Shown: positions 37,777-54,144 of the stretch, piece after piece
Numbering within the stretch: the first letter of the stretch is position 1
Layout: each line of letters begins with the position of its first letter
Source: Oryzicola mucosus
Lineage (GTDB): Bacteria > Pseudomonadota > Alphaproteobacteria > Rhizobiales > Rhizobiaceae
Reading direction: 5' to 3'
DNA length: 64,000 bases
NCBI RefSeq assembly: GCF_014534685.1
Contig: NZ_JACVVX010000008.1
Coordinates: forward strand, 1-64,000
Position numbers and translations under genes: made by a program
The notes under the pieces: generated by a model
What the model was told of the DNA's origin: nothing
The model's database searches: none
The model's input: the letters and a program-made list of their open reading frames with translations, nothing else

Positions 37777-39105
37777 TTACAGAACCCTACCTGCGCCGTC
37801 TGCATTCGGATCGATAGGCTCTCGCCCACTGACGAATTTGCCTTTCGCGAGGCCATACAAGGTTCGATGGAGCCTTAGACCACCTTCCCTTGCGCGCTCG
37901 GTCATCGCTCGAAAATAGCCGTCAGGTCTCGAAATTTGTTCAGGATCCCGCAATGTCTTTTCAAGCACCGTCGCTAGAATTACAGCGCTGCCAAAATGAC
38001 CCAGTGTACCGACGGCTTGGTCCCAAGCGCCGTCCGTGACCCCAATCATTCGACGCATCGTCCCCGCGGACCCAGAAATTGCCGCGTTCCCGTTGAACTC
38101 TACACCAATAAACTGTTGCGTCTCACCGCAGGCAGCTTTTACAAGCGTAGTTGTTACCCCGTGTAAGACGTTTGTTGTCGCTGAGGTTGAGCGGCTGATG
38201 TCCGCTACGTGACTAGGATTGGCATCCACGTTTGGCTCACAGCTTTTTTCCGAAGCCGTCTGCAAGGCGGCGCCGTTACTGTTCTTATTGATTTCTTGGG
38301 TTGTAATTATATTAGGCCTGACATCGATGTCACCCTCGCCTGACAACTCATGACGTTCAGCTTCGTTCGGTTCTTCAATAGCACGTTCGTAAATGTCGGT
38401 TAGTAAGACGGCTTTCTGTGCAGGGTGCATTGATGCATTGATTGCTGCATGGAGCTCTGCACGTATTGCAGCGGCCTCTTCGCCTATGCTTTCACAAACG
38501 TCCAAAATCGCCCTGCTCAGCCGCGAGACATCTCGGCTTGCTGCCATATTCGCGTTAACCTCCCGCCGATAAATGTCTACAGCCGCCTTCAGTTCATCGA
38601 CCCGTGCGCGGGCCGGGGTGAAGTCTAAGCCATACCCTTTATCGATCACTCCATCATCTGAACGATAGACAAACCGCCGGCCGGTAGGGCTGTCGCGATA
38701 GGCGAGGATACCGGCCTCGACAAGCCGCTTGATGCAGCGTGTCACCGTTCGCTCCGAACGCATTGTGTATTCCGCAAGCTTGGCATTCGAGATCGCGACA
38801 ATCGGGCGTCGGCGGCCTTTCCAGTCTTCAGCTTGCGAGAGGCCAAGCAGAATATCCATGATATGATAGGTCGTGCCATCGATGCCGAGGATCGGCGCGG
38901 CCTTCTTTAAAAGCACGGCAACTTCTGCCTTGGAAGTATCGGGCAGGTTGTTTGCCATTGCCAACCGGGCGCTGGCTAAAATTCCAGGCGTCACACGGCG
39001 GAATGACGCAATGGTCATTTTTTGGGCCATAAATAACCGCTCTACGATCTTTGATCGCAGCTCCATCTTCCTAGTTGGATGAAAGCCAAAAAAATGGCGC
39101 AACAA
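37777..39105 (-). CDS. repC: Plasmid replication initiator RepC
   Basis: A 442-residue protein. The RepC N-terminal region is seen in KKAAPILGIDGTTYHIMDIL and the winged-helix-like SNAKLAEYTMRSERTVTRCI with KRLVEAGILAYRDSPTGRRF and VYRSDDGVIDKGYGLDFTP. RepC binds the origin inside its own gene and starts replication. The start is a TTG at 39105, or the next TTG at 39102, preceded by a full AGGAGG (minus strand, 39110-39115). Later ATGs (39066, 39030) have poor ribosome sites. It is divergent in sequence from the best-known RepC proteins. Confidence 0.9.
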   Translation of the reverse strand: MLRHFFGFHPTRKMELRSKIVERLFMAQKMTIASFRRVTPGILASARLAMANNLPDTSKAEVAVLLKKAAPILGIDGTTYHIMDILLGLSQAEDWKGRRRPIVAISNAKLAEYTMRSERTVTRCIKRLVEAGILAYRDSPTGRRFVYRSDDGVIDKGYGLDFTPARARVDELKAAVDIYRREVNANMAASRDVSRLSRAILDVCESIGEEAAAIRAELHAAINASMHPAQKAVLLTDIYERAIEEPNEAERHELSGEGDIDVRPNIITTQEINKNSNGAALQTASEKSCEPNVDANPSHVADISRSTSATTNVLHGVTTTLVKAACGETQQFIGVEFNGNAAISGSAGTMRRMIGVTDGAWDQAVGTLGHFGSAVILATVLEKTLRDPEQISRPDGYFRAMTERAREGGLRLHRTLYGLAKGKFVSGREPIDPNADGAGRVL

Positions 39106-39130
39106 AACGCCTCCTGCCGCAAGGCAAGGC

Positions 39131-39159
39131 TTGATTGTGCGAGCGGTCCATCATAGAAT
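39131..39159 (+). promoter_or_regulatory. Promoter of the counter-transcribed RNA
   Basis: TTGATT at 39131-39136 and TAGAAT at 39154-39159 with exactly 17 bases between, on the strand opposite to repABC. It lies in the repB-repC gap, where such promoters are known in repABC plasmids. Confidence 0.7.
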
Positions 39160-39165
39160 CAGATT

Positions 39166-39253
39166 GTTAGAGCTGATGTCGACGGGACCACAACATTCCG
39201 TTGGCTGGATTTGAAGGGTCTGTCGACTGCAATCGGCAGACCCTTATCTCTTT
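39166..39253 (+). ncRNA. Antisense (counter-transcribed) RNA controlling repC
   Basis: Predicted from the promoter at 39131-39159 and the terminator at 39216-39253; about 85 nt, antisense to the repB-repC leader. In repABC plasmids such RNAs limit repC expression and set incompatibility and copy number. The repC ribosome site (39110-39115) lies just outside the RNA on the repC side, so control would be through folding of the leader. Confidence 0.65.
39216..39253 (+). terminator. Intrinsic terminator of the antisense RNA
   Basis: GGGTCTGTCGA-CTGCA-ATCGGCAGACCC hairpin at 39216-39243 followed by TTATCTCTTT. The stem has a single mismatch (G-U in RNA). Confidence 0.7.
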
Positions 39254-39259
39254 CGATAG

Positions 39260-40303
39260 TCAGCCCATGCTGTCCTTCTCCTCTTTTGTCACGTCGCGAA
39301 ACTCTTGAACGAGTTGCGGCAATTTTCGCAGCAGCCAAGTGGCCAGGCCGGGTTCCTTGAATTCGGCAATAGAAAGCTGGGTTTGTCGTCCGGTGCGTTT
39401 GACGGAAATTGAAAGGCCGCCACCGAGGTCGATTTCTTCAACGCCCGTTGTCCCGACCGCCTTCCGCGTCAAAGCGTTGAATAGCAGCGCAAACTTTTCG
39501 TCGCTCGTGGCGGAATGCCATTCGCCCGTCGACGTTATTCTTTCGATGTTGACGCCAGACTCCGTGGCCAGCTTCTGGTCATGAAAATAGCTGCCCAGTT
39601 TCTCCCATTTCGGCCTGCCAACGGATGGAGCCGGTCCGATCTTTCGTACTAGATCATGGGGAAGGGCGGACGCCACAGATGTCAGCATCGAGATGTAAAC
39701 GAGGTTTTGCCCCTCGGCGCGACCAAGCGCCGTAGCGATAGTCTCCCGATCAAAACCCTTCTCCCGCAGCGTAAGGGCGAAGAAGGCTTGTTCTATAAAG
39801 GACAGGTTGGCGCGCTCGGTATTCTCTACGCCTTGCGCAATAATCAACTCCTTGTCCGATAAGTCTCGGACGATCGCTTTTACCCGCCGCCCCAAAATCT
39901 GACAGGCCCTTAGTCGGCGATGTCCGTAGGCAACCTGATAGTAGCCAGGTTTGTTGGCCAGCGGGCGGACCAAGATGGGCAATTTCTGGCCGGCCTCTCG
40001 CAAAGCCTCGACAAAAACAGTGAATTGTGGGTCACCCTCCAGGTCGAGCCTATCCTTTACAAAGGATGGGACGACATGCGTCGCCTCCAATTCAACGACT
40101 GCCTCGGCGTTGACCAACTGCTCGCGCAACCGCTCATTGTCCTCCTCGATTGACACGAAGGCCCGGTCCATCGACTTCACGGCGCCCGACGACACCTTTC
40201 TCTCCTGCACGGCAGGGGAGGGGAGGTGCTTTGCCAGTTCGGTGGCATCGACATTCCCGAAGAGATGCCGCATCCGATCGTTACGTTGCTTTGGGCTGTT
40301 CAT
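39260..40303 (-). CDS. repB: Plasmid partition protein RepB (ParB-like)
   Basis: A 347-residue protein with the ParB N-terminal domain (LPILVRPLANKPGYYQVAYG and HRRLRACQILGRRVKAIV), followed by the HTH region (SFIEQAFFALTLREKGFDRE and TIATALGRAEGQNLVYIS). It binds parS-type sites such as those at 37530 and 37660 and works with RepA in partition. It overlaps repA by 4 bp (ATGA). The antisense-RNA locus follows its stop. Confidence 0.95.
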   Translation of the reverse strand: MNSPKQRNDRMRHLFGNVDATELAKHLPSPAVQERKVSSGAVKSMDRAFVSIEEDNERLREQLVNAEAVVELEATHVVPSFVKDRLDLEGDPQFTVFVEALREAGQKLPILVRPLANKPGYYQVAYGHRRLRACQILGRRVKAIVRDLSDKELIIAQGVENTERANLSFIEQAFFALTLREKGFDRETIATALGRAEGQNLVYISMLTSVASALPHDLVRKIGPAPSVGRPKWEKLGSYFHDQKLATESGVNIERITSTGEWHSATSDEKFALLFNALTRKAVGTTGVEEIDLGGGLSISVKRTGRQTQLSIAEFKEPGLATWLLRKLPQLVQEFRDVTKEEKDSMG

Positions 40304-41520
40304 GTGCGCCCCCAGACCGATTTGATATGATTGAAGATTTCCGCGTTGACCGCATCAACCGATTCAAGTGCCCTGTTGAGGGTGTCGCGTCCGACGCTGC
40401 CCTTGGCCATCTCGTACAGGCTTTTCTTTTCGAGCCCGGCATTGGCGATGGCCGTGGTGTCGACAACGACGGGCGCGAGAACATCCTCGCCAAAGAGGGA
40501 CCGGAGCAGCGCTACGACATTGACCTGCGGCACATCGTTCGGATTGTGCCGGGTGAGAACATAGCGGATAAAATCGTGTTCGAGCACGCCGCCACGCTCC
40601 TCGATGACATGCATGATGTCGCTCATCATGGCCAGGAACTGGTTCATGCTGGCAACATCGATCATGGCCGGGTGAATGGTGATCAGCAGGGACGTCGCTG
40701 CGCAAAGCGCGCCGAGGGTAAGATATCCCAATTGCGGCGGAGCATCGATGAGCACCACATCATAGTCGTCCGCAACATCAGAGATGACGGCCCCAAGCCT
40801 GCGGAAAAAGATCGCGTCTCCGCGGCCTACACCATCAGCGATGGCCTGAGGAGTTTCGTGTTCGTACTCCATAAGCTCGAGATTGCCGGGCACCACGTCG
40901 ATCCCAGGAAAATAGCTCTTTCGGATCACGTCACGCAGAGGGCGCCGCTGGTCTTCGTCGTAGCGTATGGACGCATAGATTGTCTGGTTCTCCTCGACGT
41001 CGAACTCAGGCTGGTAGCCGAACATGGCAGACAATGACGCCTGGGGGTCAAGGTCGATCGCGAGTACGCGCAGTCCCTGGATTGCGAGATAATGCGCAAG
41101 ATGGACCGTCGTCGTCGTCTTTGCCGACCCGCCCTTGAAGTTGGCAATCGTCAGAACCTGAAGCTTGTCGCCTCGCTGCCGCTGAGGATGGAAGGAGAAA
41201 GCCTCCGATGGACGCTTCTGCGCGAGATGCCTGCGGATTTCATTGATCTGCGCTAAGGTGTAGATGCGTCGGCCATTGTCTTGACGCTCGGGGATGGCGC
41301 TTTCGCCATCGAGGGACATTTGTCGCAGCGTTGACTCAGCTATACCCAGAAGCGACGATACCTCCCGCGAGGTGAAGGTCTTCAGCGATTTCATAGCTTC
41401 CGGAGGGTACATGCGCGTGCGGATCGACTGCAACTGCGCCGACAGCATCTGAGCTTGCCGCGTGATCTTGTCAGCGGACGACTCTATCGACCTTTTGTGT
41501 GCAACCAAGTTCATTCCCAC
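40300..41520 (-). CDS. repA: Plasmid partition ATPase RepA (ParA-like)
   Basis: A 406-residue ParA-type ATPase with an N-terminal HTH-like segment (TFTSREVSSLLGIAESTLRQ, about 49-68) that allows DNA binding and autorepression, then the deviant Walker A FKGGSAKTTTT at about 128-138, Walker A' (LAIDLDPQASLS) and Walker B (VVLIDAPPQLGYLT). RepA represses the operon with RepB. First gene of repABC. An imperfect inverted repeat at 41602-41624 lies 82 bp upstream of the start. Confidence 0.96.
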   Translation of the reverse strand: MGMNLVAHKRSIESSADKITRQAQMLSAQLQSIRTRMYPPEAMKSLKTFTSREVSSLLGIAESTLRQMSLDGESAIPERQDNGRRIYTLAQINEIRRHLAQKRPSEAFSFHPQRQRGDKLQVLTIANFKGGSAKTTTTVHLAHYLAIQGLRVLAIDLDPQASLSAMFGYQPEFDVEENQTIYASIRYDEDQRRPLRDVIRKSYFPGIDVVPGNLELMEYEHETPQAIADGVGRGDAIFFRRLGAVISDVADDYDVVLIDAPPQLGYLTLGALCAATSLLITIHPAMIDVASMNQFLAMMSDIMHVIEERGGVLEHDFIRYVLTRHNPNDVPQVNVVALLRSLFGEDVLAPVVVDTTAIANAGLEKKSLYEMAKGSVGRDTLNRALESVDAVNAEIFNHIKSVWGRT

Positions 41521-41996: not shown

Positions 41997-42677
41997 TTGG
42001 ACATCCTTTTTTCCGACTGCACCGTCCGATTCGGTGCCCGCGTTGCCTTGCATCCGCTATCGCTACGGCTTGAGGGGCGGCGCGTTGGTGTCATCGGTTT
42101 GAACGGATCGGGCAAGACCACGTTCGCGCGATTGATCAACGGGCTGACTCTTCCGAACGAAGGACGTGTCACGGTCAACGGGGTCGACATCGCCGCCGAG
42201 CCCGAGCGGGCTAGGATGGAGGCGGGATTCGTTTTCCAGAACCCTCAGAACCAGCTGATCATGCCTATCGTATCGGAAGATATCCTGTTTGGGTTGAGGG
42301 CGCGGGGGGCAAAAGGCGCAGAGGCGGAAGCACGCATGGCGACGACGCTCAGCCGTTTCGGCATCGAGGCTCTGGAGAGACGCCGTGTACACGAGTTGTC
42401 CGGCGGAGAAATGCAGCTTGCTGCGATGGCAAGCGTTTGTGCGCTCCACCCGCGGATTCTTGTCCTTGATGAGCCGACTAACCAACTTGATCTGAGGAAC
42501 CGCCGACTTGTCCTCAACGCCATCGAAACGATGGATGAGGATGCTGTCGTCATAACGCACGACCTGGATTTCGCTCTGCGTTTGCCGCGTCTTTTGCTTT
42601 TCCACGAAGGACAGCTCCTGGCGGACGGTGCACCTGAGGACACGATCGCACTCTACCGAAAGATTGCCGAATGTTGA
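41997..42677 (+). CDS. bioM: Biotin ECF transporter ATPase BioM, TTG start
   Basis: A 226-residue ATPase of the energy-coupling-factor type, read from TTG at 41997 (MDILFSDCTVRFGARVALHP). Walker A is GLNGSGKTTFARL, the Q-loop FVFQNPQNQLIMPIV is the ECF-type signature, and the signature loop is ELSGGEMQLAAMASVCA with Walker B ILVLDEPTNQLDLR. With BioN and BioY it forms the biotin importer. It overlaps bioN by 7 bp. Confidence 0.93.
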   Translation: MDILFSDCTVRFGARVALHPLSLRLEGRRVGVIGLNGSGKTTFARLINGLTLPNEGRVTVNGVDIAAEPERARMEAGFVFQNPQNQLIMPIVSEDILFGLRARGAKGAEAEARMATTLSRFGIEALERRRVHELSGGEMQLAAMASVCALHPRILVLDEPTNQLDLRNRRLVLNAIETMDEDAVVITHDLDFALRLPRLLLFHEGQLLADGAPEDTIALYRKIAEC

Positions 42678-43324
42678 GCAGCCTTTACGTCCAAGGGCAG
42701 GGGCCATTACGCCGGCTTAACGCTGGGTGCAAGCTCGGTTTACTCGCTGTAGCCGGTGCAACTCTATTTTTCATCCATTCACCATGGCTTCTTGGTTTGG
42801 CTTTTGTCTTGGCCGCCGCCGTGTATTTTACCGTTGGGCTTCCGCCCCGCGAGGCGTTGATGCGGATTCGCCTGACATTGTATTCGCTGCTCTTTCTCAT
42901 GGTGCTCAACCTCATCTTTCTGCCTCTGGCAGAGGTGCAGATTCTCACATTGAGGTTTCTAGCCCTTGTTTTTGCCGCTGCTGCGGTCACGGCCACAACG
43001 CCGCTCGATGCCATGATGGATGTCGTGAACCGGATTATGCGCCCATTTGAAAAGCTGGGGTTCGTACGTCAGGGGGACGCCGGTCTGACGGTTGGGCTTT
43101 GCGTGCGTTTCGTCCCTGAGATATTGGCACGGCATCACGCGCTTGTCGAAGCGCACAAAGCAAGGGGTTTGAAGGTCCGGCCATTGACGCTGCTCGGCCC
43201 GTTGATCATCCTTACTTTGAAGCAGGCCGACGATGTGGCCGCAGCAATAGATGCGCGCGGTCTGCGCGGTGCTCAGGCAATTTCGATTTCGTCACAACCC
43301 AATGAAAGGCATACTCGTCCATGA
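42671..43324 (+). CDS. bioN: Biotin ECF transporter transmembrane subunit BioN
   Basis: A 217-residue EcfT-type protein with several membrane helices (LGLLAVAGATLFFIHSPWLL, LTLYSLLFLMVLNLIFLPLA) and the two coupling-helix Ala-Arg-Gly type motifs (EAHKARGLKV and AIDARGLRGA) that contact the ATPase. Overlaps bioM and bioY by a few bases. Confidence 0.93.
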   Translation: MLSSLYVQGQGPLRRLNAGCKLGLLAVAGATLFFIHSPWLLGLAFVLAAAVYFTVGLPPREALMRIRLTLYSLLFLMVLNLIFLPLAEVQILTLRFLALVFAAAAVTATTPLDAMMDVVNRIMRPFEKLGFVRQGDAGLTVGLCVRFVPEILARHHALVEAHKARGLKVRPLTLLGPLIILTLKQADDVAAAIDARGLRGAQAISISSQPNERHTRP

Positions 43325-43881
43325 CCACCCGCGATCTGGCGCTTTCGGCGCTGTTTGCCGCCATCATCATCGTCCTGGGCCTGGTTCCGCCTGTCCCGTT
43401 AGGCTTTATCCCTGTGCCTATCACGCTGCAGTCGATGGGCGTTATGCTTGCCGGCTGCATCATCGGGGCCAAGCGTGGCGCGCTCGCTTATGCCATTTTC
43501 GTGCTGCTGGCAGCGGCCGGCCTGCCGGTCCTTTCGGGCGGACGTGGCGGTCTGGCGATCCTGATGGGCCCGACGGGCGGATATATCCTTGGCTGGATCG
43601 TAGCTGCATTCGTCACTGGACTCATCGCCGAGCGGTTGGTTCGCCAAGACCAGAGCGAATGGCGCCAACTCGGCGGCTTTTTCGCCGCTTCGGTCATCGG
43701 GGGCATCGTCGTACTCTATGCCATTGGCATGCCTTGGGTGACAGCGGTCGCAGGAACGCCCTTCTACGCAGTGGCATCCGGCTCGGTAGTGTTTGTGCCT
43801 GGCGATCTGCTCAAAGCAGCTATTACCGCTCTGGCGGCGCGCGCCGTTCTTGCCGGCTATCCTCTGTTGCATCGCGCCTGA
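43321..43881 (+). CDS. bioY: Biotin-specific S-component BioY
   Basis: A 186-residue membrane protein with the BioY pattern: LALSALFAAIIIVLGLVPPV, then PVPITLQSMGVMLAGCIIGA (the PVPiTlQt box) and GGLAILMGPTGGYILGWIVA (the GPtgGY box). It binds biotin with high affinity. The bioMNY unit lies directly upstream of a biotin-dependent-carboxylase operon. Confidence 0.95.
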   Translation: MTTRDLALSALFAAIIIVLGLVPPVPLGFIPVPITLQSMGVMLAGCIIGAKRGALAYAIFVLLAAAGLPVLSGGRGGLAILMGPTGGYILGWIVAAFVTGLIAERLVRQDQSEWRQLGGFFAASVIGGIVVLYAIGMPWVTAVAGTPFYAVASGSVVFVPGDLLKAAITALAARAVLAGYPLLHRA

Positions 43882-43906: not shown

Positions 43907-44812
43907 TCATCCGCCGCCTCCCATCGTGACGGACATAAACGCTCTGAATGCGGCGGCGGCCGGATCAATGGGTCTTTGGCGTGACCAGGCGAGCCCGACA
44001 TCCATGCTAGGGATCGGCTCGACCACGCCACGAACTTCGATACGCTGGCCTTCAAGAGACCAAGGCCGGTACACCATATCCGATAAGATTGTCACTCCAA
44101 TCCCGGAAGCAACGAGAGATCGCACCGCTTCGACGGAGCTTGTTATCAGGACTGGTTTCGGAGCAAGTCCAGCGGCATCCCAATAGCGCGCAGCTGTCGT
44201 TCTGGCTTCGTCCACGGTCAGCATAACGTAATCTTCCGCGGCAACGTCGGCCAGGCTGATTTCGGGCTTTCCCAGAAGATGATGGTCGGCCGAAAGCCAA
44301 AGCCTTCGGCTCGACCGCATCAAAACTTCCTGGGCAAGCTCGTCGCTATGTTCAAGGTTGGAAACCAGCATCACCGCCATGTCGATGTCGCCGACCATCA
44401 GCCCGGTTTCGAGCGCATCGCGCGGCAGTTCGAGAATCTCGACGTCGATCTGCGGATAGGTTTTTCGAAACCGCGCATAATAACGCGACATGTAATAACC
44501 TACGACCGTGTAGGTCATACCAAGTTTGAACTTGCCCGCCGGTCCTGCATGCTCACGCAAAGGGCTCCGCACCGCAGCCGCTACCGCGCCGGTTATCACC
44601 CGCGCATGGTCGAGAAACCGCGAGCCCTCCATCGTCAACCGTACACCGGCGTGGGTGCGTTCGAAAAGCTTTACGCCCAGATTGGCCTCAAGCATCTTGA
44701 TCGCCGCTGTGACGGCGGATTGTGAGATATTGAGTTCCACAGCGGCATGGCTAACCTGGCCGCTTTCCGCAGTGGCAATAAAATAATCGAGTTGTTTCAA
44801 AGTGATGGTCAT
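43907..44812 (-). CDS. LysR-family regulator, divergent from pxpA
   Basis: A 301-residue LysR regulator: MTITLKQLDYFIATAESGQV, then SHAAVELNISQSAVTAAIKM and LEANLGVKLFERTHAGVRLT form the winged helix, and the co-inducer domain follows. The 134-bp gap to pxpA puts it in position to control the pxpA-BCCP-carboxylase operon. Confidence 0.92.
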   Translation of the reverse strand: MTITLKQLDYFIATAESGQVSHAAVELNISQSAVTAAIKMLEANLGVKLFERTHAGVRLTMEGSRFLDHARVITGAVAAAVRSPLREHAGPAGKFKLGMTYTVVGYYMSRYYARFRKTYPQIDVEILELPRDALETGLMVGDIDMAVMLVSNLEHSDELAQEVLMRSSRRLWLSADHHLLGKPEISLADVAAEDYVMLTVDEARTTAARYWDAAGLAPKPVLITSSVEAVRSLVASGIGVTILSDMVYRPWSLEGQRIEVRGVVEPIPSMDVGLAWSRQRPIDPAAAAFRAFMSVTMGGGG

Positions 44813-44946: not shown

Positions 44947-45669
44947 ATGAACGTCACGCTGAACTGTGACATGGGCGAAAGCTTCGGCCTCTATAAGGTT
45001 GGTGATGATGCCGGCATGATGCCGATCATCGACGTAGCGAATGTTGCCTGTGGGTTTCACGCATCCGATCCAGATCACATGTTGGCTGCAGTTCGAAGCG
45101 CCAAGACCCATGGCGTGAAAGTCGGCGCCCATCCCGGTCTGCCCGACCTTCAGGGCTTTGGTCGGCGCGAAATGCGCATGACGCGCGACGAGGTCCGGAA
45201 CACCATCATCTATCAGGTTGGCGCGCTCTCCGGGTTCTTAAAAGCCGAGGGTGTGGAACTCCACCACATCAAGCCGCATGGCAGCCTGTATTTCATGGCC
45301 ATGCAGCAGGAAGCCGTCGCTCATGGCGTGTGCGATGCGGCGGAGATATATGGCGTGCCGCTTTTCGGAATGACGGGCACGATGCACGAGAAAATCTACC
45401 AGGAGCGGGGCATTCCGTTCATAGCAGAATTTTATGCCGATCTCGACTACGACAGTTCCGGCAAATTGATTCTGACCCGTGTCCACGATGCCAAGGACCC
45501 TGCAGAGATGGCCGAGCGTTGCGTACGCGCTATTAGCAAAGGCGAGGGCACGGCGGAGGACGGCAGTTTCTTCCCAGTTCGTTGCGAGACCATTTGCGTC
45601 CATTCCGACACGCCCAACGCTATCGAAATCGCCAAGGCTGTTAGAACCTCCATCGCGCCCTGGCACTGA
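44947..45669 (+). CDS. pxpA: LamB/YcsF family protein (PxpA type)
   Basis: A 240-residue protein starting MNVTLNCDMGESFGLYKVGD with ANVACGFHASDPDHM, VKVGAHPGLPDLQGFGRREM and PHGSLYFMAM, the conserved LamB/YcsF segments. PxpA is the ATP-dependent lactam-opening subunit of 5-oxoprolinase and works with PxpB and PxpC. Family members also occur with biotin-carboxylase genes, as here, where the substrate may differ. Start at 44947; an ATG at 44943 is out of frame. Confidence 0.9.
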   Translation: MNVTLNCDMGESFGLYKVGDDAGMMPIIDVANVACGFHASDPDHMLAAVRSAKTHGVKVGAHPGLPDLQGFGRREMRMTRDEVRNTIIYQVGALSGFLKAEGVELHHIKPHGSLYFMAMQQEAVAHGVCDAAEIYGVPLFGMTGTMHEKIYQERGIPFIAEFYADLDYDSSGKLILTRVHDAKDPAEMAERCVRAISKGEGTAEDGSFFPVRCETICVHSDTPNAIEIAKAVRTSIAPWH

Positions 45670-45728
45670 AGTCGACTGAACCTTACGCCCGCGTTTTTTA
45701 GTCCCTCCACAGTTTTCCGGAGCTTATC

Positions 45729-45962
45729 ATGGCCCAGATTCTTTCACCTCTTCCCGGTACATTCTATCGAAGCGCTTCGCCGGACCAGCCGCCGTACAAG
45801 GCAGACGGCGATGCCGTCTCGGCAGGAGATGTCATCGGTCTCATCGAGGTGATGAAGTCGTTCCACGAAGTGAAGGCCGAGTCGGCAGGCACCAATATCC
45901 GTTTTCTCGCCGACAACGAAGATCCAGTCATGGCCGGCGCACCACTCGCGGATCTCGACTGA
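45729..45962 (+). CDS. Biotin carboxyl carrier-type protein
   Basis: A 77-residue single biotinyl domain: ILSPLPGTFYRSASPDQPPY, then GDVIGLIEVMKSFHEVKAES. The biotinylated lysine is Lys43 in EVMKSF, a variant of the common AMKM/VMKM site; this EVMK(S/L) form is typical of AccB-like and urea-carboxylase-type carriers. Its stop overlaps the biotin carboxylase start (TGATG). The biotin acceptor would carry CO2 from the carboxylase to the carboxyltransferase subunits. Confidence 0.9.
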   Translation: MAQILSPLPGTFYRSASPDQPPYKADGDAVSAGDVIGLIEVMKSFHEVKAESAGTNIRFLADNEDPVMAGAPLADLD

Positions 45963-47326
45963 TGTTGAAAAAGCTTCTGGTCGCCAATCGAGGAGAGATA
46001 GCGGTCAGGATCATCCGGGCCGCGCAGGATCTTGGCATCGCCACGGTGGCGGTTTTTTCCGCAGCGGATGCGGAATCGTTGCATGTCCAGATTGCCGATG
46101 AGGCGGTAAACATTGGCCCGCCCGCGGCAAAGAAGTCCTATTTGAACATCGATGCCATCCTGCAAGCGGCCAAAGACACCGGCTGCGACAGTGTTCACCC
46201 CGGCTACGGCTTCCTTGCGGAAAATGCCGCCTTTTCCGATGCGGTCACAACTGCCGGCTTGGTCTTTGTCGGACCATCCGGCGACGCCATCCGACTCATG
46301 GGCGACAAGGTTTCAGCGCGTACGGCCGCAGCTTCTGCGGGTGTTCCGGTGGTGCCTGGCTCGGCCGGAAGGGTTGAAGGCATCGAGGCTGGACGTGATG
46401 TGCTGACCGAAACCGGTTTTCCGGTGATGATCAAGGCCGCGGCCGGCGGCGGCGGGCGCGGCATCCGCATCGCCAACTCGCTCGCCGAATTCGAGCAAGC
46501 TTTCCCACAAGCCCAGGCCGAAGCGCTCGCCGCATTCGGCGATGGTGGGCTATACATGGAAAAGGTGATTGGCAAGGCTCGCCACATCGAGGTTCAAGTC
46601 TTGGCGGACGGCAGCGATGCCATCCATTGTTACGAACGCGAGTGCTCCTTGCAGCGGCGACGCCAGAAAGTATGGGAAGAAGCGCCATCGCGGGCGCTTT
46701 CCGATGCACTGCGCGAGGAACTCTGCGCTTCGGCGGTGGCCTTGGCCAAAGCGGTCAATTATTCGGGTGCCGGCACCGTGGAATATCTCTATGACGACGA
46801 GGCCGACCGCTTTTATTTCATCGAGATGAACACCCGCATCCAGGTCGAGCATCCCGTCACAGAGGCGGTCACGGGTATCGATCTGGTCGCCGAGATGCTG
46901 CGGATCGCGGGCGGCGAGAAGCTGAGGCTTGAGCAAAGCGATATTTCGGTCAAGGGGCATGCGATCGAGGTGCGTCTCAACGCAGAGGACCCTGCACGGG
47001 ATTTCGCGCCATTCCCCGGGAAAGTTGAGGATCTTCGCATACCCGGAGGCCCCGGCGTGCGGTTCGATTCCATGCTTTATCCCGGCTATCAGGTGCCGCC
47101 GTTTTACGACTCGCTGCTGGCGAAGCTGATCGTTCATGCAGAGACGCGCGAGGCTGCGATCCTGCGCCTTACCCGGGCACTCAACGAGCTCACGATCGGC
47201 GGGCTCAAGACCACAAAGCCGCTCTTTCTCGGGCTTGCCGCCGATGCGTCGGTCCAGGCCGGGGATGTGCACACACGCTGGCTGGAAGGCTGGCTTACTG
47301 AAAACGCTGCTGCGCTGGCAGACTGA
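45962..47326 (+). CDS. Biotin carboxylase
   Basis: A 454-residue protein with the biotin-carboxylase plan: KLLVANRGEIAVRIIRAAQD, HPGYGFLAEN, the ATP-grasp glycine loop AAAGGGGRGIRIAN, and the catalytic FIEMNTRIQVEHPVTE. Closest in type to AccC, though the neighbours indicate a dedicated enzyme complex rather than acetyl-CoA carboxylase. It carboxylates the BCCP biotin using bicarbonate and ATP. Confidence 0.94.
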   Translation: MLKKLLVANRGEIAVRIIRAAQDLGIATVAVFSAADAESLHVQIADEAVNIGPPAAKKSYLNIDAILQAAKDTGCDSVHPGYGFLAENAAFSDAVTTAGLVFVGPSGDAIRLMGDKVSARTAAASAGVPVVPGSAGRVEGIEAGRDVLTETGFPVMIKAAAGGGGRGIRIANSLAEFEQAFPQAQAEALAAFGDGGLYMEKVIGKARHIEVQVLADGSDAIHCYERECSLQRRRQKVWEEAPSRALSDALREELCASAVALAKAVNYSGAGTVEYLYDDEADRFYFIEMNTRIQVEHPVTEAVTGIDLVAEMLRIAGGEKLRLEQSDISVKGHAIEVRLNAEDPARDFAPFPGKVEDLRIPGGPGVRFDSMLYPGYQVPPFYDSLLAKLIVHAETREAAILRLTRALNELTIGGLKTTKPLFLGLAADASVQAGDVHTRWLEGWLTENAAALAD

Positions 47327-47336
47327 AAGGAGACCG

Positions 47337-48212
47337 ATGTCGATACGTTTCAACTTCGGCGGTGACGAACATATCTTCGGCGAAGTGTCCGAAGACATGT
47401 CGCTCGCCTCATTCTTCACTGGTCTTTCCATGACCAACGCGGTTCGCTCCGCCGGGATCAAGGGCGTCACGGAAATCTGCCCTGCGAATGCCAGTTTCCA
47501 GATCCGCTTCAACCCAGACTTGATCAAGCCGCAGGATTTGCTCGCTGAGCTGAAATCGATGGAGGCGGCCGCGTCCACGTCAGATTCCGTCCTGAAAACC
47601 CGGATCATCGAACTCCCGGTTTATTTCCAGGATCCGTGGACGCACGAAACCTGCCTCCGGTTTCGTGAGCGCCACCAGGACCCATCGTCGACCGATCTCG
47701 AATATTCTGCCCGTATCAACGGCTATGCCACGGTTGAAGACTTCATCGCCGCCTATTCCGGCCAGCCCTGGTTCGTCTCCATGGTCGGCTTCGTGGCCGG
47801 GTTGCCCTTCCTTTATCAGATGGTCGAGCGCCAAAAGCAGATTCAGGCACCGAAATATCTTCGTCCGCGCACCGATACACCGAAGCTGACGATCGGCCAT
47901 GGCGGCTGCTTTGCGGCGATCTATTCCGTGCGTGGGGCAGGCGGCTATCAGATGTACGGCGTCACTCCGGCACCGATCTATGATCCTGCCATGAAAGTTC
48001 GCTATCTCTCCGATGACATGTGCCTGTTCAAGCCAGGAGACATCGTCAAGTTCAAGGCTATCGGGCGCGACGACTACGACGCGACGCTGGAGGAGATCGA
48101 TGCCAACCGGTGGCAGCCGACGGTCCGCGAGTGCACCTTCAGCCTGACCGACTTCAACCGCGATATTTACGGCACCAATGCAAAGCTGATGGAGCTTATC
48201 GATGGCCGTTAA
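47337..48212 (+). CDS. pxpB: 5-oxoprolinase subunit B / carboxyltransferase-like subunit
   Basis: A 291-residue protein from the ATG at 47337, preceded by AAAGGAGA; the frame open to 47136 is shadow sequence inside the carboxylase. It is annotated PxpB/KipI by fold, but longer than the roughly 240-residue KipI type. The core SMVGFVAGLPFLYQMVERQK is PxpB-like, while AGGYQMYGVTPAPIYD and PKYLRPRTDTPKLTIGHGGC resemble the carboxyltransferase part of urea amidolyase. Its neighbours support a carboxyltransferase role with a biotinyl protein. Confidence 0.88.
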   Translation: MSIRFNFGGDEHIFGEVSEDMSLASFFTGLSMTNAVRSAGIKGVTEICPANASFQIRFNPDLIKPQDLLAELKSMEAAASTSDSVLKTRIIELPVYFQDPWTHETCLRFRERHQDPSSTDLEYSARINGYATVEDFIAAYSGQPWFVSMVGFVAGLPFLYQMVERQKQIQAPKYLRPRTDTPKLTIGHGGCFAAIYSVRGAGGYQMYGVTPAPIYDPAMKVRYLSDDMCLFKPGDIVKFKAIGRDDYDATLEEIDANRWQPTVRECTFSLTDFNRDIYGTNAKLMELIDGR

Positions 48213-49173
48213 GGTAATCTCTCCCGGCCTCTCAACCTCTGTGCAGGATCTCGGCAGGCCGGGCCACTACCATGTTGGCATCCCTGAGGGCGGTGGCATG
48301 GACCGCTTCGCCACGCGCATTGCCAACCTTCTGGTCGGCAACGAGCCTGGCGCAGCACTGCTCGAAGCCACATTCATGGGGCCGGAACTGGAATTTACCC
48401 AGGACGTAACCGTTGCCATCACTGGCGGCGAGTTGCCGCCGAAGCTCAATGGCGAGGAACGCCCAACCTGGGAGAGCTTTCCGGTCAAGGCCGGTGACCG
48501 GCTTTCCTTTGGCTTCCTCAAGGGTGGTGCGCGCGCCTATATCGCCATCTCTGGCGGTATCGACGTGCCGGTCGTGCTCGGCTCGCGTTCGACCTATATT
48601 CTCGGTGCGCTGGGCGGGTATCAGGGCCGTACCTTGAAAGCCGGCGACGAGCTTCCAATCGGAGAAGCTTCCGGGAAATCCGGCCTCTCGCTGCCTGTGA
48701 ACCTGCGTCGTGCCCAGACAGTTCCGTCGGAACTCAGGATGCTTCCGGGCCTTTACTGGCACCGCATCACCGAGGCGTCCGGCAAGCGGTTTTTCGATGA
48801 AACCTGGAAAGTCGCGCCCGAAGCCGACCGCATCGGCTACCGCTTCAAAGGTGGCACACCGCTGGAATTCGTCGAGCGCGAACAGCCCTTCGGCGCGGGC
48901 TCCGACCCGTCGAACATCGTCGACGCCTGTTATCCCTACGGATCGGTCCAGGTGCCCAGCGGCACCGAACCCATCGTTTTGCATCGAGACGCGGTTTCAG
49001 GGGGCGGCTATATGATGGTGGGTGTGGTAATATCGGCCGATATGGACCTGATAGCCCAGCTCCAGCCGCATACGCCCGCCCGCTTCGTTCCCGTGAGGCT
49101 GGAAGAAGCGCTGGCTGCCCGAGCTGATGGCAACGCTGCGCTGGCGCGTGCGGAGGAATACCTGGCCGGTTGA
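48202..49173 (+). CDS. pxpC: 5-oxoprolinase subunit C / carboxyltransferase-like subunit
   Basis: A 323-residue protein with MAVKVISPGLSTSVQDLGRP and GHYHVGIPEGGGMDRFATRI near the start, IAISGGIDVPVVLGSRSTY in the middle and PSGTEPIVLHRDAVSGGGYM near the end, all typical of PxpC/KipA and of the urea-carboxylase carboxyltransferase. It overlaps pxpB by 11 bp and is its usual partner. Confidence 0.93.
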   Translation: MAVKVISPGLSTSVQDLGRPGHYHVGIPEGGGMDRFATRIANLLVGNEPGAALLEATFMGPELEFTQDVTVAITGGELPPKLNGEERPTWESFPVKAGDRLSFGFLKGGARAYIAISGGIDVPVVLGSRSTYILGALGGYQGRTLKAGDELPIGEASGKSGLSLPVNLRRAQTVPSELRMLPGLYWHRITEASGKRFFDETWKVAPEADRIGYRFKGGTPLEFVEREQPFGAGSDPSNIVDACYPYGSVQVPSGTEPIVLHRDAVSGGGYMMVGVVISADMDLIAQLQPHTPARFVPVRLEEALAARADGNAALARAEEYLAG

Positions 49174-49424: not shown

Positions 49425-50177
49425 ATGAGTCATCTGAGCGCGGAGAACGTCTCAGTGGCGTTTGCAGGGCTGAAGGCCCTGTCGGCTGTCGACCTGCAGA
49501 TCACGCCCGGCCGTATCAGCGGCCTCATCGGCCCGAACGGCGCTGGCAAAACCACGCTCGTCAATGTGCTGACGGGCTTCCAGTCGCCTTCGGAAGGGGC
49601 AGTCAAGCTCGACGGCGAAGCTTTGGTAGGGCTCAAGCCGCATCAGGTTCGGCGGCGTGGCATCGCCCGTACCTTTCAGGGGGGGCGGCTGTTCCGCGAT
49701 CTGCCCGTAGTCGACAATCTCGAGGTGACCGGCGTAGGGCTCGGTATGAGCCGGCGCGCGGCAATCGCCGAGGCGGAAGCCATGCTCGACTGGATCGGCA
49801 TCGCATCGCTGGGCTCACGCATCGCCGGCACCTTGCCCTATACCGACGAGCGGCGGGTAGCCATCGGCCGTGCCCTCATGGGAAGGCCCTCCTACGTCCT
49901 GCTGGACGAACCGGCCGCAGGCATGAGCGGGCCGGAATCGAAGGAACTGTCGGCGCTCATCCGCCGCATCGCCACCGACCTTGGCTGCGGTGTTCTGCTC
50001 ATTGAGCACAATGTCGGGCTCGTGCTCGGACTTTGCGAGCATATCGTCGTTCTCGATTCCGGAGCCATTATCGAGGAAGGCCCCCCGGCATCGATCCGCG
50101 ACAGCGAAAAGGTGCGCCACGCCTATATGGGCACGGCCGCCAATACCGACCTGCCGGTGCTGGAGGTGATGGAATGA
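49425..50177 (+). CDS. livG: Branched-chain-amino-acid-type ABC transporter, ATPase (LivG type)
   Basis: A 250-residue ATPase with Walker A GPNGAGKTTLVN, the LivG-like insert GIARTFQGGRLFRDLPVVDN, signature YTDERRVAIGRALM (variant of LSGGQ) and Walker B VLLDEPAAGMSGPE. The RRGIARTFQ motif is typical of the LivG/BraF side. Its stop overlaps the livF start (ATGA). Confidence 0.9.
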   Translation: MSHLSAENVSVAFAGLKALSAVDLQITPGRISGLIGPNGAGKTTLVNVLTGFQSPSEGAVKLDGEALVGLKPHQVRRRGIARTFQGGRLFRDLPVVDNLEVTGVGLGMSRRAAIAEAEAMLDWIGIASLGSRIAGTLPYTDERRVAIGRALMGRPSYVLLDEPAAGMSGPESKELSALIRRIATDLGCGVLLIEHNVGLVLGLCEHIVVLDSGAIIEEGPPASIRDSEKVRHAYMGTAANTDLPVLEVME

Positions 50178-50908
50178 GCCTGCTTGCCCTTTCCGACATC
50201 ACCATTCGCTATAGCCGGCTCACCGCCGTTCGCGAGGTGTCTTTCTCCATGACCGAGGGAGAAATTCTGTTCATCACTGGGCCGAATGGGGCGGGCAAGT
50301 CGTCGCTTCTACGTGCCATCGCAGGGGTTACGCCGGTAGCCGGCGGGAAAATCCAGCTTGCCGGCCAGGACATCACTGGCCAAGCTCCCGAGAACATAGC
50401 CCGGCTTGGCCTTTCCATGGTGCCCGAAGGGCGCGAGGTCTTCGGCTCGCTGACGATCGAGGAAAACCTCCTGGTTGGCACTGGCATGCAAACCCGCGAC
50501 CGAAATTCGCGCGCCCGGACTGCAAGCGACCTGGAAGCTGTCTACACGATCTTTCCGATCCTGAAAGACCGACGCAATGGGCAGGCGGGTCTGCTTTCGG
50601 GTGGTCAGCAGCAGATGCTGGTCATAGGCCGCGCGCTGATGACCAATCCAAGGCTCATCGCCATCGACGAACCCTCGCTCGGCCTTGCGCCCAACATCAC
50701 CGACCAGGTCTACGAGCGGCTGATCGCCTTGCAGGCCCAACGCCAGCTTACACTGCTCATTGTCGAGCAGAGTTCGGCCCGCGCGATGATGGTCGGGGGA
50801 CGGATGATCCTGATGCGTGGCGGACAGATTGTGCTGGACGGCGACGCGCGAACGCTTGGCAGCGGCGAGGCCATCCAAGCCGCCTATTTCGGCTACGAGG
50901 ACCACTGA
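50174..50908 (+). CDS. livF: Branched-chain-amino-acid-type ABC transporter, ATPase (LivF type)
   Basis: A 244-residue ATPase from the ATG at 50174; the frame open back to 50033 is shadow of livG. Walker A is GPNGAGKSSLLRAI, signature LSGGQQQMLVIGRALM, Walker B LIAIDEPSLGLAP. The MVPEGREVFGSLTIEENL block is the LivF-type marker. Confidence 0.92.
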   Translation: MSLLALSDITIRYSRLTAVREVSFSMTEGEILFITGPNGAGKSSLLRAIAGVTPVAGGKIQLAGQDITGQAPENIARLGLSMVPEGREVFGSLTIEENLLVGTGMQTRDRNSRARTASDLEAVYTIFPILKDRRNGQAGLLSGGQQQMLVIGRALMTNPRLIAIDEPSLGLAPNITDQVYERLIALQAQRQLTLLIVEQSSARAMMVGGRMILMRGGQIVLDGDARTLGSGEAIQAAYFGYEDH

Positions 50909-50909
50909 G

Positions 50910-51815
50910 ATGCTCCAGACCCTGTTCGACGCACTCTCGCTCGGCTCGCTTTATGCACTCGGCGCACTCGGCATCGCGTTGATCTTCGGGGTCATGCGGC
51001 TGGTGAACTTCGCGCATGGCGATGTCATCGCTTTTTGCGTCTTCGCTCTTCTGTGGCCGTCAACAGATGCCATGGCCATTGTCTTTGCGGGTCAATTGCC
51101 CTGGTATCTGCTGGTACCGTTCGTACTCCTGTGCGGGGCGGGGCTGTCCGTGCTGTGTGAGATCGTGGTTTTCCGCCGCTTCCGCAACGCAAATCCGGCA
51201 ACCATGATGATTGCCTCTTTCGCGCTGGGCTTCGTCATCCGCTACTTCCTCCTGATGCTCTACAGCAGCCGGCCGAAATCCATCTCGCTGCTGCCTGCTC
51301 TGTCGCAACCTGTTGAAATCTTCGGCGCGCGGCTGCCCCTGCTGCAACTCATCACCATCGTCGCCACCATGGCCATACTGATCGGCCTGACCTTGTTCCT
51401 GCGTCAGACCCGCTTCGGGCTGGAAATGCGGGCGGCGGCGGAAAACTTCTCGATGGCCCGCATGCTCGGTGTCCGCGCCAACCGGGTTATCATGGGCGCC
51501 TTCGCTCTGTCTGGCGCACTGGCCGGAGCCATTGCGCTGATCTTCGGCAGCCAGACCGGCACGGTCGATATCCAGATGGGCGCATCGATCATGCTGATGG
51601 CCTTTATTGCCACTGTCATCGGCGGTCTGGGCAGCCTTGGAGGCGCTGTTCTGGCCGGCTTCCTTCTGGGCGCGGCGTCGGTCGTCATGCAGGTAGCGCT
51701 TCCTGTCGATGCCCGCCCGTTCCGCGATGCTTTCGTCTATGGGGCGGTGATACTCGTGCTCCTCTTCCGTCCTCAAGGACTCATTGCCGCGCGCGGCACG
51801 AAGGAAAGGGTCTGA
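50910..51815 (+). CDS. livH: Branched-chain-amino-acid-type ABC transporter, permease (LivH type)
   Basis: A 301-residue membrane protein from the ATG at 50910 (MLQTLFDALSLGSLYALGAL). Motifs GIALIFGVMRLVNFAHGDVI near the N-terminus and FIATVIGGLGSLGGAVLAGF near the C-terminus are characteristic of LivH/BraD permeases. One base separates it from the livF stop. Confidence 0.93.
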   Translation: MLQTLFDALSLGSLYALGALGIALIFGVMRLVNFAHGDVIAFCVFALLWPSTDAMAIVFAGQLPWYLLVPFVLLCGAGLSVLCEIVVFRRFRNANPATMMIASFALGFVIRYFLLMLYSSRPKSISLLPALSQPVEIFGARLPLLQLITIVATMAILIGLTLFLRQTRFGLEMRAAAENFSMARMLGVRANRVIMGAFALSGALAGAIALIFGSQTGTVDIQMGASIMLMAFIATVIGGLGSLGGAVLAGFLLGAASVVMQVALPVDARPFRDAFVYGAVILVLLFRPQGLIAARGTKERV

Positions 51816-51818
51816 CCC

Positions 51819-52910
51819 ATGTCTGCAGTCTCTTCCGCCCCCGAAACTCAGCTGACCGGCGATGTCATCGCCGCCAGGAAGCCGGCGCGATTCACGCTGG
51901 CACGCAAGACCATCGTCACGCCTGTCCTGCTTTCCTTGCTGCTGATCGCGATTACACTCATCACCGTGATGACGGGGTCGCGGCCCTTCAACCAGACCGT
52001 GATTGACGTTCTCGTCCGCGTGATCTTCGTCGTTGGGCTCTACATATTCATCGGCAATTCAGGCGTGCTGAGCTTCGGGCATATCGGCTTCACTTGCCTC
52101 GGCGCCTATGCCGCTGCCTGGCTAACGATCAACCCGATCATGAAAAGCAGCGCCTTGCCCGGCCTGCCTGATTGGCTGCTTCAGACGCGACTCATCTACT
52201 GGCAGGCGGCGATACTGGCAGCGCTTTTTGCCGGCGTGGCGGCGCTCATCTTTGGGAAGGTGCTGATGCGGCTTTCGGGGATCGCCGCCTCTATCGCCAC
52301 CTTCGCCGTGCTTGCGATGATCAATACGATCTATTCCAACTGGGACAGCGTCACCGGCGGGACCTCGTCGGTCGTTGGCATTCCCATCATCCGGACGATC
52401 TGGCCTTACCTGATCGGGGCCGTCGCAGCCATCTTCATCGCCTGGGCGCATGCGATTTCGCGGTCCGGCCTTGCACTGCGCGCCGCGCGCGACGAGCCCA
52501 CGGCCGCCGCTGCCTCCGGTGTCGATATTCCCAAGGAACGGCTTGTGGCCTTCGTCGTCTCCGGTGCGGTCATGGGGCTGGGCGGTGCCCTGATGGCTCA
52601 TTCCATCGGCGTGGTCACCCCCGACACTTTCTATCTCAGCCTCACATTCATCACCCTGTCCATGCTCGTTGTCGGCGGCATGGGAAGTCTCTCGGGTGGT
52701 GTTATCGGGGTGGTGCTCCTATCCGCCCTCATCCAGGCACTTCGCTGGATGGAAGGCGGCGTATCGCTCGGTGACGCCACCTTCGCTCTTCCGAAGGGAA
52801 TTCAGGAAATCGCACTCGGCGTCATCATGATCGTCATTCTCGCGCTTCGTCCATCAGGCCTTATGGGAAACCGCGAGATCACCTTAACCCGCAGCAAACG
52901 CAACATGTGA
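51819..52910 (+). CDS. livM: Branched-chain-amino-acid-type ABC transporter, permease (LivM type)
   Basis: A 363-residue membrane protein with an N-terminal extension and the LivM core: FIGNSGVLSFGHIGFTCLGA, then ISRSGLALRAARDEPTAAAA, GAVMGLGGALMAHSIG and MLVVGGMGSLSGGVIGVV. It pairs with LivH as the channel of the importer. Confidence 0.93.
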   Translation: MSAVSSAPETQLTGDVIAARKPARFTLARKTIVTPVLLSLLLIAITLITVMTGSRPFNQTVIDVLVRVIFVVGLYIFIGNSGVLSFGHIGFTCLGAYAAAWLTINPIMKSSALPGLPDWLLQTRLIYWQAAILAALFAGVAALIFGKVLMRLSGIAASIATFAVLAMINTIYSNWDSVTGGTSSVVGIPIIRTIWPYLIGAVAAIFIAWAHAISRSGLALRAARDEPTAAAASGVDIPKERLVAFVVSGAVMGLGGALMAHSIGVVTPDTFYLSLTFITLSMLVVGGMGSLSGGVIGVVLLSALIQALRWMEGGVSLGDATFALPKGIQEIALGVIMIVILALRPSGLMGNREITLTRSKRNM

Positions 52911-52950
52911 CTGGCGGCACAAGCCGACCGGAAGCAAAAAGGAGATGTGC

Positions 52951-54144
52951 ATGGCATACAAAATTAGAATTGTCGCGACGGCGCTGGCCTCGGTTTCCTT
53001 GGCATTCCCGGCTCTGGCCGATGACGAGAAGGTCGTCGTCGGATTCGCCACGGCCGAGTCGGGCTTCATGGAAGCCTACGATAAGCCCGCCCAGGAAGCG
53101 GCCATGATCCGTATTGAGGAAATCAATGCGGCCGGCGGTTTGCTTGGCAAGCAGATTGAGGTGGTCAAGGCCGATACCAAGTCTGACCGTGCCGAAGGTG
53201 CCAAGGCCGGTCTCTCCGTGCTCGATCAGGGCGCGGATCTCGTCGTCGTTTCGTGCGACTACGATTTCGGCTCGCCCGCAGCTCTCGCGGCCGAGGACGC
53301 AGGCCAGGTGTCGTTCTTCCTGTGCGCGGAATCGGTCAAGGCCGGTATCCAGGGCGTAGGCCCGCACAGCTTCTCTGCTTCGGTTCTCGCTCCGGTTCAA
53401 GGCGCGACCATGGCGGAATGGGCTTTCAAGGAAAAGGGCGCGAAGGATTTCTACCGGCTGCTTGACACCTGGACGGTCTACAACAAGGGCATCTGCGACG
53501 GCTTCGACTGGATGATGCCGAAGCTTGAGGCCCAGGGTGCGAAGCTCGTTGGCGAAGACACCTTCAAGAACGAAGACGCCTCCATCGCAGCCCAGATCAC
53601 CCGCATCAAGTCCCTGCCGAAGGAGCCCGATGCGATCATGCTCTGCACCATGATGCCAGGCGCCGTATCGGCGATCAAACAGCTGCGCGCTGCCGGCATC
53701 AACTCGATGATCCTGAACGGCTCGGGCGTCGATGGCAGCTATTGGCTCTCGGCGGTGCCCGATCTCACGAACTTCTACGTGCCGGTTCAGGGGTCGATCT
53801 ATGGCGACGACCCCAGCGCCGACGTTAACAAGTTCAACACCGTCTACAAGGAAAAGACCGGTGCCGAACCGTCAAGCCAGTATGTCTATCCCGGCTATGT
53901 CATGATCGACGTATGGGCAAAGGCGGTCGAACGTGCCGGTACCACGGACGCGGACGCCGTTGTTGCAGAACTGGAAAAAATGAAGGACGAGCCGACGCTG
54001 TTTGGCACCCGCACCTTTACGCCCGAACTGCATCACCAGAACCGGGCGCGGTACTTGATCGTCGAAACCAAGGCCGGAAAGCCAGGCGTCGTCGGCGAAT
54101 GGACGATTTCCGAACCCGTTCCGATGGAAGCGATCCTGAAGTAG
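52951..54144 (+). CDS. Branched-chain-amino-acid-type ABC transporter, substrate-binding protein
   Basis: A 397-residue periplasmic binding protein from the ATG at 52951; the ATG at 52945 directly touches the AAGGAG ribosome site, so the second one (6-base spacing) is used. A signal peptide ends at about FPALADD. The two-lobed peripla_BP_6 fold is shown by VVVGFATAESGFMEAYDKPA, then INAAGGLLGKQIEVVKADTK, VLDQGADLVVVSCDYDFGSP and TMMPGAVSAIKQLRAAGI. The ligand is unknown; the neighbouring carboxylase operon suggests its substrate or a related amide. Confidence 0.92.
   Translation: MAYKIRIVATALASVSLAFPALADDEKVVVGFATAESGFMEAYDKPAQEAAMIRIEEINAAGGLLGKQIEVVKADTKSDRAEGAKAGLSVLDQGADLVVVSCDYDFGSPAALAAEDAGQVSFFLCAESVKAGIQGVGPHSFSASVLAPVQGATMAEWAFKEKGAKDFYRLLDTWTVYNKGICDGFDWMMPKLEAQGAKLVGEDTFKNEDASIAAQITRIKSLPKEPDAIMLCTMMPGAVSAIKQLRAAGINSMILNGSGVDGSYWLSAVPDLTNFYVPVQGSIYGDDPSADVNKFNTVYKEKTGAEPSSQYVYPGYVMIDVWAKAVERAGTTDADAVVAELEKMKDEPTLFGTRTFTPELHHQNRARYLIVETKAGKPGVVGEWTISEPVPMEAILK

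Follow-up and report, generated by a model that had tools for sequence, protein, structure and literature searches.

Among the described systems closest to the genes examined here are urea amidolyase and the prokaryotic 5-oxoprolinase PxpABC. Urea amidolyase, like the operon described below, combines biotin carboxylase (BC), carboxyltransferase and biotin carboxyl carrier protein (BCCP) functions and then applies an amide hydrolase, and in a study of the K. lactis urea carboxylase, Lys1605 is given as the most likely general base of carboxyl transfer, with the K1605A mutant retaining ~0.095 of kcat (PMC5770610). The PxpA, PxpB and PxpC families are common to PxpABC and our operon, and one paper describes PxpA as probably having lactamase activity (PMC8453981). 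As early as 2011, attention was drawn to urea carboxyltransferases encoded by split genes, with no functional data at the time (PMC3199775). For the five-gene set itself, we found no functional study in the open-licence literature, with subscription papers mostly outside reach, so that absence from print is not shown. Here, we analyzed a 64-kb stretch of DNA from Oryzicola mucosus (the window), in which five closely packed genes on the + strand (44947-49173) encode a LamB/YcsF protein, a biotin carrier, a biotin carboxylase and two carboxyltransferase subunits. Our results support a model in which this operon probably encodes a four-subunit biotin-dependent carboxylase of the urea-carboxylase type (BCCP, BC and a two-gene carboxyltransferase) that works with the LamB/YcsF hydrolase. 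The five genes are:

44947-45669, + strand: PxpA-like LamB/YcsF hydrolase (240 aa; Pfam LamB_YcsF, 297.5 bits)
45729-45962, + strand: biotin carboxyl carrier protein (77 aa; Biotin_lipoyl, 47.6 bits; NF005457, 116.2 bits, cut-off 87)
45962-47326, + strand: biotin carboxylase (454 aa; NF009471, 746 bits, cut-off 686)
47337-48212, + strand: PxpB-like carboxyltransferase subunit (291 aa; CT_C_D, 116 bits)
48202-49173, + strand: PxpC-like carboxyltransferase subunit (323 aa; CT_A_B, 297 bits; 11-base overlap with the PxpB gene)

An earlier, sequence-only reading had placed a 77-residue carrier with an EVMKSF motif and a full BC between pxpA and pxpB, and both are indeed there. To put these genes in context we assembled 106 operon loci, comprising the window, 15 loci from a class sample, 80 from a scan of genome contigs and 10 from plasmids. 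The biotin site of the window BCCP reads EVMKSF, and the biotinylation-lysine motif E[VI]MK[ST][FY] is present in all 103 operon BCCPs scored. The window BC matches the Pfam domains Biotin_carb_N, CPSase_L_D2 and Biotin_carb_C and carries the motifs GGGGRG, QRRxQKxxEEAP and EMNxRxQVEHPVTE; of 105 operon BCs compared, 80 contain all three motifs in their strict form and the other 25 miss at least one. The open reading frame (ORF) of PxpB begins mechanically at 47136, and we took the ATG at 47337 because relatives align from there, which gives the length of 291 residues that the same reading had remarked on. The two segments that it had singled out, AGGYQMYGV and PKYLRPRTDTPK, are both found in this protein, together with an insert near residues 96-118 and a C-terminal extension. 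BC, BCCP and the two carboxyltransferase subunits are four separate ORFs, not the single polypeptide of urea carboxylase, and the carboxyltransferase consists of CT_C_D and CT_A_B domains, not of the AccA/AccD type of acetyl-CoA carboxylase.

One line of evidence that links this operon to urea carboxylase lies in the PxpB active site. Lys173 of the window PxpB aligns with K1605 of the K. lactis enzyme, and column 173 is Lys in 106/106 operon loci and in 12/12 urea-carboxylase-type ORFs (defined by a length of ~1,170 aa or more and by similarity, without a family scan), whereas it is Arg in 37/37 ordinary PxpBs. The same division held in further sequences, with Lys in 14 long PxpBs of a phylum sample, 13 urea-carboxylase-type ORFs and 3 plasmid operons, and Arg in three more ordinary PxpBs. 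The operon count includes one locus from a metagenome bin (L078, 3327-4358) in which a stop codon interrupts PxpB; its two pieces show a gap and a K at column 173 and were counted as K, and the second PxpB alignment was built without this locus. No BC or BCCP match was found in the stretches fetched around the 37 ordinary PxpBs, which extended less than 5 kb on one side in 12 cases. Four loci labelled f82 were retrieved separately from this ordinary set and tallied apart. In one family with several PxpB-like paralogs, column 173 is Lys in 7/9 and Leu in 2/9; two genomes of one family (L047-L051 and L179-L181) hold 4-5 such paralogs each, and in two paralogs the catalytic Lys is replaced by Leu.

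Beyond the lysine, 21 PxpB columns (thresholds 90/75/25%) and 13 PxpC columns (thresholds 85/70/25%) link the operon type with urea carboxylase and are seldom found in ordinary subunits, a rarity that for PxpB partly counts gaps, since 12 of the 37 ordinary PxpB rows were gapped at 173 in this comparison (the other aligned piece having been retained). Urea carboxylases also have residues where PxpB has its insert, near 96-118, and along its C-terminal part, positions at which ordinary rows are largely blank. Profile scores point in the same direction. The window PxpB scores 96.2 bits against the urea carboxylase model and 60.5 bits against the PxpB model TIGR00370 (cut-off 145.55), and the window PxpC reaches 219.7 bits against NF045499, far under its cut-off of 500. 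BC and PxpC score 525.5 and 225.7 bits against the urea carboxylase model, whose whole-chain cut-off is 1303.85, a value that none of the separate subunits attains. The likeness of the window PxpB to urea carboxylase exceeds chance, given its model scores and the recurrence of the gene set across many genomes.

A PxpC tree separates the operon type (haloarchaea included), the urea carboxylases and the paralogs of one family from ordinary PxpC with an SH-aLRT of 100, in a quick search of 81 rows that included 19 of the 106 operon loci and used SH-aLRT alone. At the level of fold, comparison of the PxpB model with 3va7 (urea carboxylase) gave Z 20.4 over 266 residues, as against Z 13.2-14.3 over 189-197 residues for ordinary types, a gap not to be over-read because another entry for this yeast enzyme gave Z 16.7. 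The proposed resemblance of PxpB to the carboxyltransferase domain of urea amidolyase is therefore upheld by the scores, Lys173, the shared columns and the fold. The fold comparison thus favours urea carboxylase for PxpB, but for PxpC it does not tell the two types apart, with Z 31.1 for E. coli YbgK and Z 30.9 for urea amidolyase.

The gene set recurs widely. The nearest relatives of the window PxpB are in Mesorhizobium and other Hyphomicrobiales. In the class sample, 16/289 genomes (our own included) have a PxpB of at least 63% identity, the next match being at 35%, and the order PxpA-BCCP-BC-PxpB-PxpC is kept in 15 of these 16; in one locus (L033), importer genes are inserted between PxpA and BCCP. 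Two of the 16 also hold an ordinary PxpB. In the phylum sample, 16/398 genomes (our own included) have a long PxpB (E < 1e-140). At least 560 stretches in the genome-contig scan that carry a signature peptide of long-type PxpB encode a relative of it, and among the best 80 of these, on which our gene-order counts are based, the five genes stand in order in 77, while the remaining 3 run into contig ends and still have BC. On plasmids, the order was found in all 10 regions opened, out of 60 listed matches; one of these copies is on pRL12 of R. johnstonii 3841. It is maintained on a betaproteobacterial plasmid, and two haloarchaeal plasmids have all five genes with order or strands altered. On an Agrobacterium plasmid (L133, 3765-8112), an annotated CBASS defence locus lies just upstream of the operon.

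The PxpA-like protein has diverged from its 5-oxoprolinase counterpart. Ordinary PxpA has Arg166 in 30/30 and Arg177 in 29/30 sequences, residues that may bind the carboxylate of 5-oxoproline, and the window PxpA has L166 and T177 at these sites. Among operon PxpAs, R177 is absent in 102/102 and R166 in 81/102. Gene content, its conservation, the family relationships, the catalytic residues and this diverged pocket are all direct observations.

From here we infer complex formation, N-carboxyl transfer, ring opening and the kind of substrate. BC would carboxylate biotin on BCCP, using ATP and bicarbonate, and the PxpB–PxpC pair, with Lys173 as general base, would shift the carboxyl group to an amide nitrogen in a cyclic amide taken up by the cell. 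We propose the PxpA-like protein as the ring-opening (amide-hydrolysing) subunit: it would hydrolyse the ring amide once activated, and loss of CO2 from the carbamate so formed would leave an amino acid. We favour as substrate a lactam, for example 2-pyrrolidinone or valerolactam, or another cyclic amide. Urea is unlikely because the Asp of urea-carboxylase-type ORFs is replaced by Phe152 here and because the partner hydrolase is of the LamB/YcsF family. It is conceivable, if somewhat doubtful, that the enzyme is a CO2-assisted lactamase, in which biotin delivers CO2 to a lactam's ring nitrogen for the sole purpose of letting the LamB/YcsF subunit cleave the amide bond, the CO2 then being lost, so that ATP drives hydrolysis via transient N-carboxylation.

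The neighbours of the operon bear on its regulation and substrate. In the window they are:

41997-42677, 42671-43324 and 43321-43881, + strand: BioM-BioN-BioY-type biotin importer (BioY Pfam, 134.9 bits; BioM and BioN assigned by eye and position, without a family scan)
43907-44812, - strand: divergent LysR-type regulator (HTH_1 and LysR_substrate)
49425-54144, + strand: Liv-type ABC importer (LivG, F, H, M; four genes named from annotated relatives)
52945-54144, + strand: substrate-binding protein of the Liv-type importer (Peripla_BP_6, 181.5 bits)
56945-60612, + strand: HyuA-HyuB pair (Hydantoinase_A and Hydantoinase_B)

The divergent LysR-type protein probably regulates the operon, and a LysR match is present in 91/106 operon loci. 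For other neighbours, we compared 41 non-redundant operon loci or clusters (near copies removed) with 37 ordinary pxp loci over a 6-kb range. BioY lies within this range in 18/105 operon loci, or 13/41 of the non-redundant ones, and in 0/37 ordinary loci (p 1e-4). HyuA of the caprolactamase type is found in 9/41 and 0/37, respectively; the window HyuA-HyuB pair has caprolactamase alpha and beta as its nearest models (570 and 272 bits, under cut-offs of 1000) and possibly belongs to the same pathway, outside the core enzyme. The Liv-type importer, which near relatives have in similar order, probably takes up the substrate of the operon. The linkage to a Liv-type importer that the sequence-only reading had pointed to holds in the window and in 9/41 clusters, but 18/41 have an importer of the TorT/sugar type. 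Since importers differ between groups, substrates may differ as well.

Hints about the substrate (the description of PxpA as a lactamase, HyuA, genes for γ-aminobutyrate (GABA) metabolism and a cluster with a second PxpA) point to lactams or cyclic amides, although they are weak and come partly from one clade. Neighbours of many operon loci, mostly in one clade, include an XDH-type hydroxylase, a class III aminotransferase, an NTF2-like protein and a second PxpA. We rejected these neighbours as proof of the substrate because of that distribution and because XDH and the aminotransferase show no enrichment once near copies are removed. At ~10 kb, a range with no control set, XDH occurs in 6/41 clusters, GABA aminotransferase in 4/41 and HyuA in 14/41. 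One annotated operon is adjoined by GABA aminotransferase and succinate-semialdehyde dehydrogenase, and matches to both lie near L124. Further recurrent neighbours in 24 loci of the TorT group were mostly ORFs that look antisense to known genes by their coordinates and were dropped.

Elsewhere in the window, RepC and ORFs resembling repA and repB by eye (37777-41520) suggest a secondary replicon. In the rest of the genome, one contig (C22, 249000-268900; 7419-18163 therein) carries a cluster of an NTF2-like protein, a class III aminotransferase, a second PxpA, an XDH-type hydroxylase and HyuA/HyuB; the genome has no second PxpB/PxpC for this PxpA. In Mesorhizobium loci, several genes of this type of cluster adjoin the biotin operon.

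Several observations weigh against a dedicated urea-carboxylase-type enzyme. One operon, on a 4.7-kb contig (L039), lacks BC, its BCCP gene standing immediately ahead of PxpB, and the best BC of that genome is 50% identical; a deletion or an assembly gap are suggested alternatives. Of the 16 phylum-sample genomes with a long PxpB, two from one gammaproteobacterial genus (L232 and L233) have PxpA and lysine-type PxpB/PxpC with no adjoining BC or BCCP; the best BCs found elsewhere in these two are 53% identical and housekeeping-like. One of the three further Arg-type PxpBs, that of Lactiplantibacillus, does have BC and BCCP alongside, so the linkage of BC to lysine-type PxpB is not universal. 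Lysine and BC linkage, moreover, largely follow one clade, so that our counts do not represent independent events. At the residue level, the operon type departs from urea carboxylase at 29 PxpB columns that are conserved in the latter, some of these (such as 149, 152, 177 and 234) carry the ordinary-type residue, and R166 is still present in 21/102 operon PxpAs. The PxpB model is poor (pLDDT <50) at residues 173-203, and the PxpC fold match discriminates neither reading. The lactam assignment also rests on weak context, because within 6 kb XDH (2/41 versus 2/37), the aminotransferase (0/41 versus 1/37) and GABA genes are not enriched.

How far do these points favour other explanations? An ordinary PxpABC acting on 5-oxo-L-proline, with BC and BCCP incidental or merely helpful, would account for a window PxpA that scores above the cut-offs of the PxpA subfamily models NF003814 (273.6 bits, cut-off 226) and NF003816, for the finding that our genome has no CT_A_B/CT_C_D pair besides that of the operon, for the ordinary residues kept at some PxpB columns, and for both the BC/BCCP genes next to an ordinary-type PxpB in Lactiplantibacillus and the two lysine-type gammaproteobacterial genomes without a dedicated BC. 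We nonetheless consider it unlikely, and 5-oxoproline a disfavoured substrate. The set is not simply a 5-oxoprolinase because PxpB and PxpC fall well under their model cut-offs, the PxpA arginines are changed (R177 in every operon sequence), accB and BC are present elsewhere in the genome and BioY is linked to the operon; the urea-carboxylase-type columns and the two long-type genomes with an additional ordinary PxpB also speak against it. A spare BC/BCCP pair of acetyl-CoA carboxylase, made for fatty acid synthesis and lying in a pxp operon by chance, is suggested by the name "acetyl-CoA carboxylase" that these two proteins bear in NCBIfam and in plasmid records. This is very improbable when an accB match over its cut-off adjoins an AccC-like BC on another contig of the genome (C25; that BC is 54% identical to the operon BC), when the BC/BCCP linkage to PxpB/PxpC spans alphaproteobacteria to haloarchaea, and when the operon carboxyltransferase is of the CT_C_D/CT_A_B type.

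That the enzyme carboxylates an open-chain ureido or guanidino substrate (urea, an N-carbamoyl amino acid or guanidine), with PxpA as the equivalent of allophanate hydrolase, also has a low probability, if a slightly higher one than an ordinary 5-oxoprolinase. The grouping of operon PxpC with urea carboxylase fits this idea, as does HyuA/HyuB near some operons, which could produce ureido acids. The UrtA-like score of the window binding protein can be read both ways, being weakly positive at 63.7 bits and far from the cut-off of 492.75. At PxpB column 152, however, 12/12 urea-carboxylase-type ORFs have Asp, whereas Phe fills this column in the 106 operon rows not gapped at it and in 25/25 such ordinary rows, and the partner is a LamB/YcsF protein, a family whose PxpA members are described as lactam-opening. 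A biotin-dependent carboxylase coupled to a LamB/YcsF hydrolase thus remains our preferred reading. The earlier proposal of urea-carboxylase-type modules plus such a hydrolase, with a substrate probably other than 5-oxoproline, gains support from the lysine, the shared columns, the tree, the fold, the PxpA arginine loss and the biotin importers.

If the five genes do encode one enzyme, they would represent an uncharacterized catabolic route present in haloarchaea as well as in many alphaproteobacteria and some other proteobacteria. Databases split the set between two labels, "5-oxoprolinase" and "acetyl-CoA carboxylase", both probably misleading. Lys or Arg at PxpB 173 offers a residue test that separates the operon type from ordinary 5-oxoprolinase subunits, and the one-enzyme interpretation makes the chemistry of PxpABC testable. 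Were CO2-assisted lactam opening to prove correct, urea amidolysis and lactam opening would follow one principle, and ordinary PxpABC would be a relative that lost the biotin step or borrows it in trans.

Other described systems place BC and BCCP near pxp genes in different ways. The pxpB-pxpC-accB-accC-pxpA operons of S. aureus and Lactiplantibacillus likewise have both inside a pxp operon, in a different gene order. The S. aureus arrangement is taken from a paper in which CcpE has a strong target in a six-gene operon with pxpB, pxpC, pxpA, accB and accC, and in which accBC are treated as fatty acid genes (PMC11315280). On a Lactiplantibacillus plasmid (L224, 6908-11961), the order is pxpB-pxpC-BCCP-BC-hydro-lyase-pxpA. 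Unlike the operon type, the Lactiplantibacillus PxpB (one sequence) is arginine-type and its PxpC joins ordinary PxpC on a long branch; a genome paper on Lp. pentosus mentions pxpB and pxpC as well as an additional copy of BC/BCCP, and draws no link between them. In PDB 9yx5, going by its title, the M. smegmatis MSMEG_0435-0436 proteins, a PxpC/PxpB-type pair, are bound to a biotin-dependent carboxylase complex; this pair differs from the operon in having an arginine-type PxpB and a long-chain acyl-CoA carboxylase complex as partner.

In summary, the operon stands between the two systems with which we began. Relative to PxpABC, it has Lys in place of Arg at PxpB 173, a PxpB insert and C-terminal extension, PxpA arginine losses and its own BC and BCCP. 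With the K. lactis urea carboxylase/urea amidolyase (3va7, 5i8i) it has in common the carboxyltransferase fold, many columns of the active region and the general-base lysine. Urea amidolyase, in contrast, is one chain with an Asp and an allophanate hydrolase, where the operon has four genes with Phe152 and a LamB/YcsF protein.

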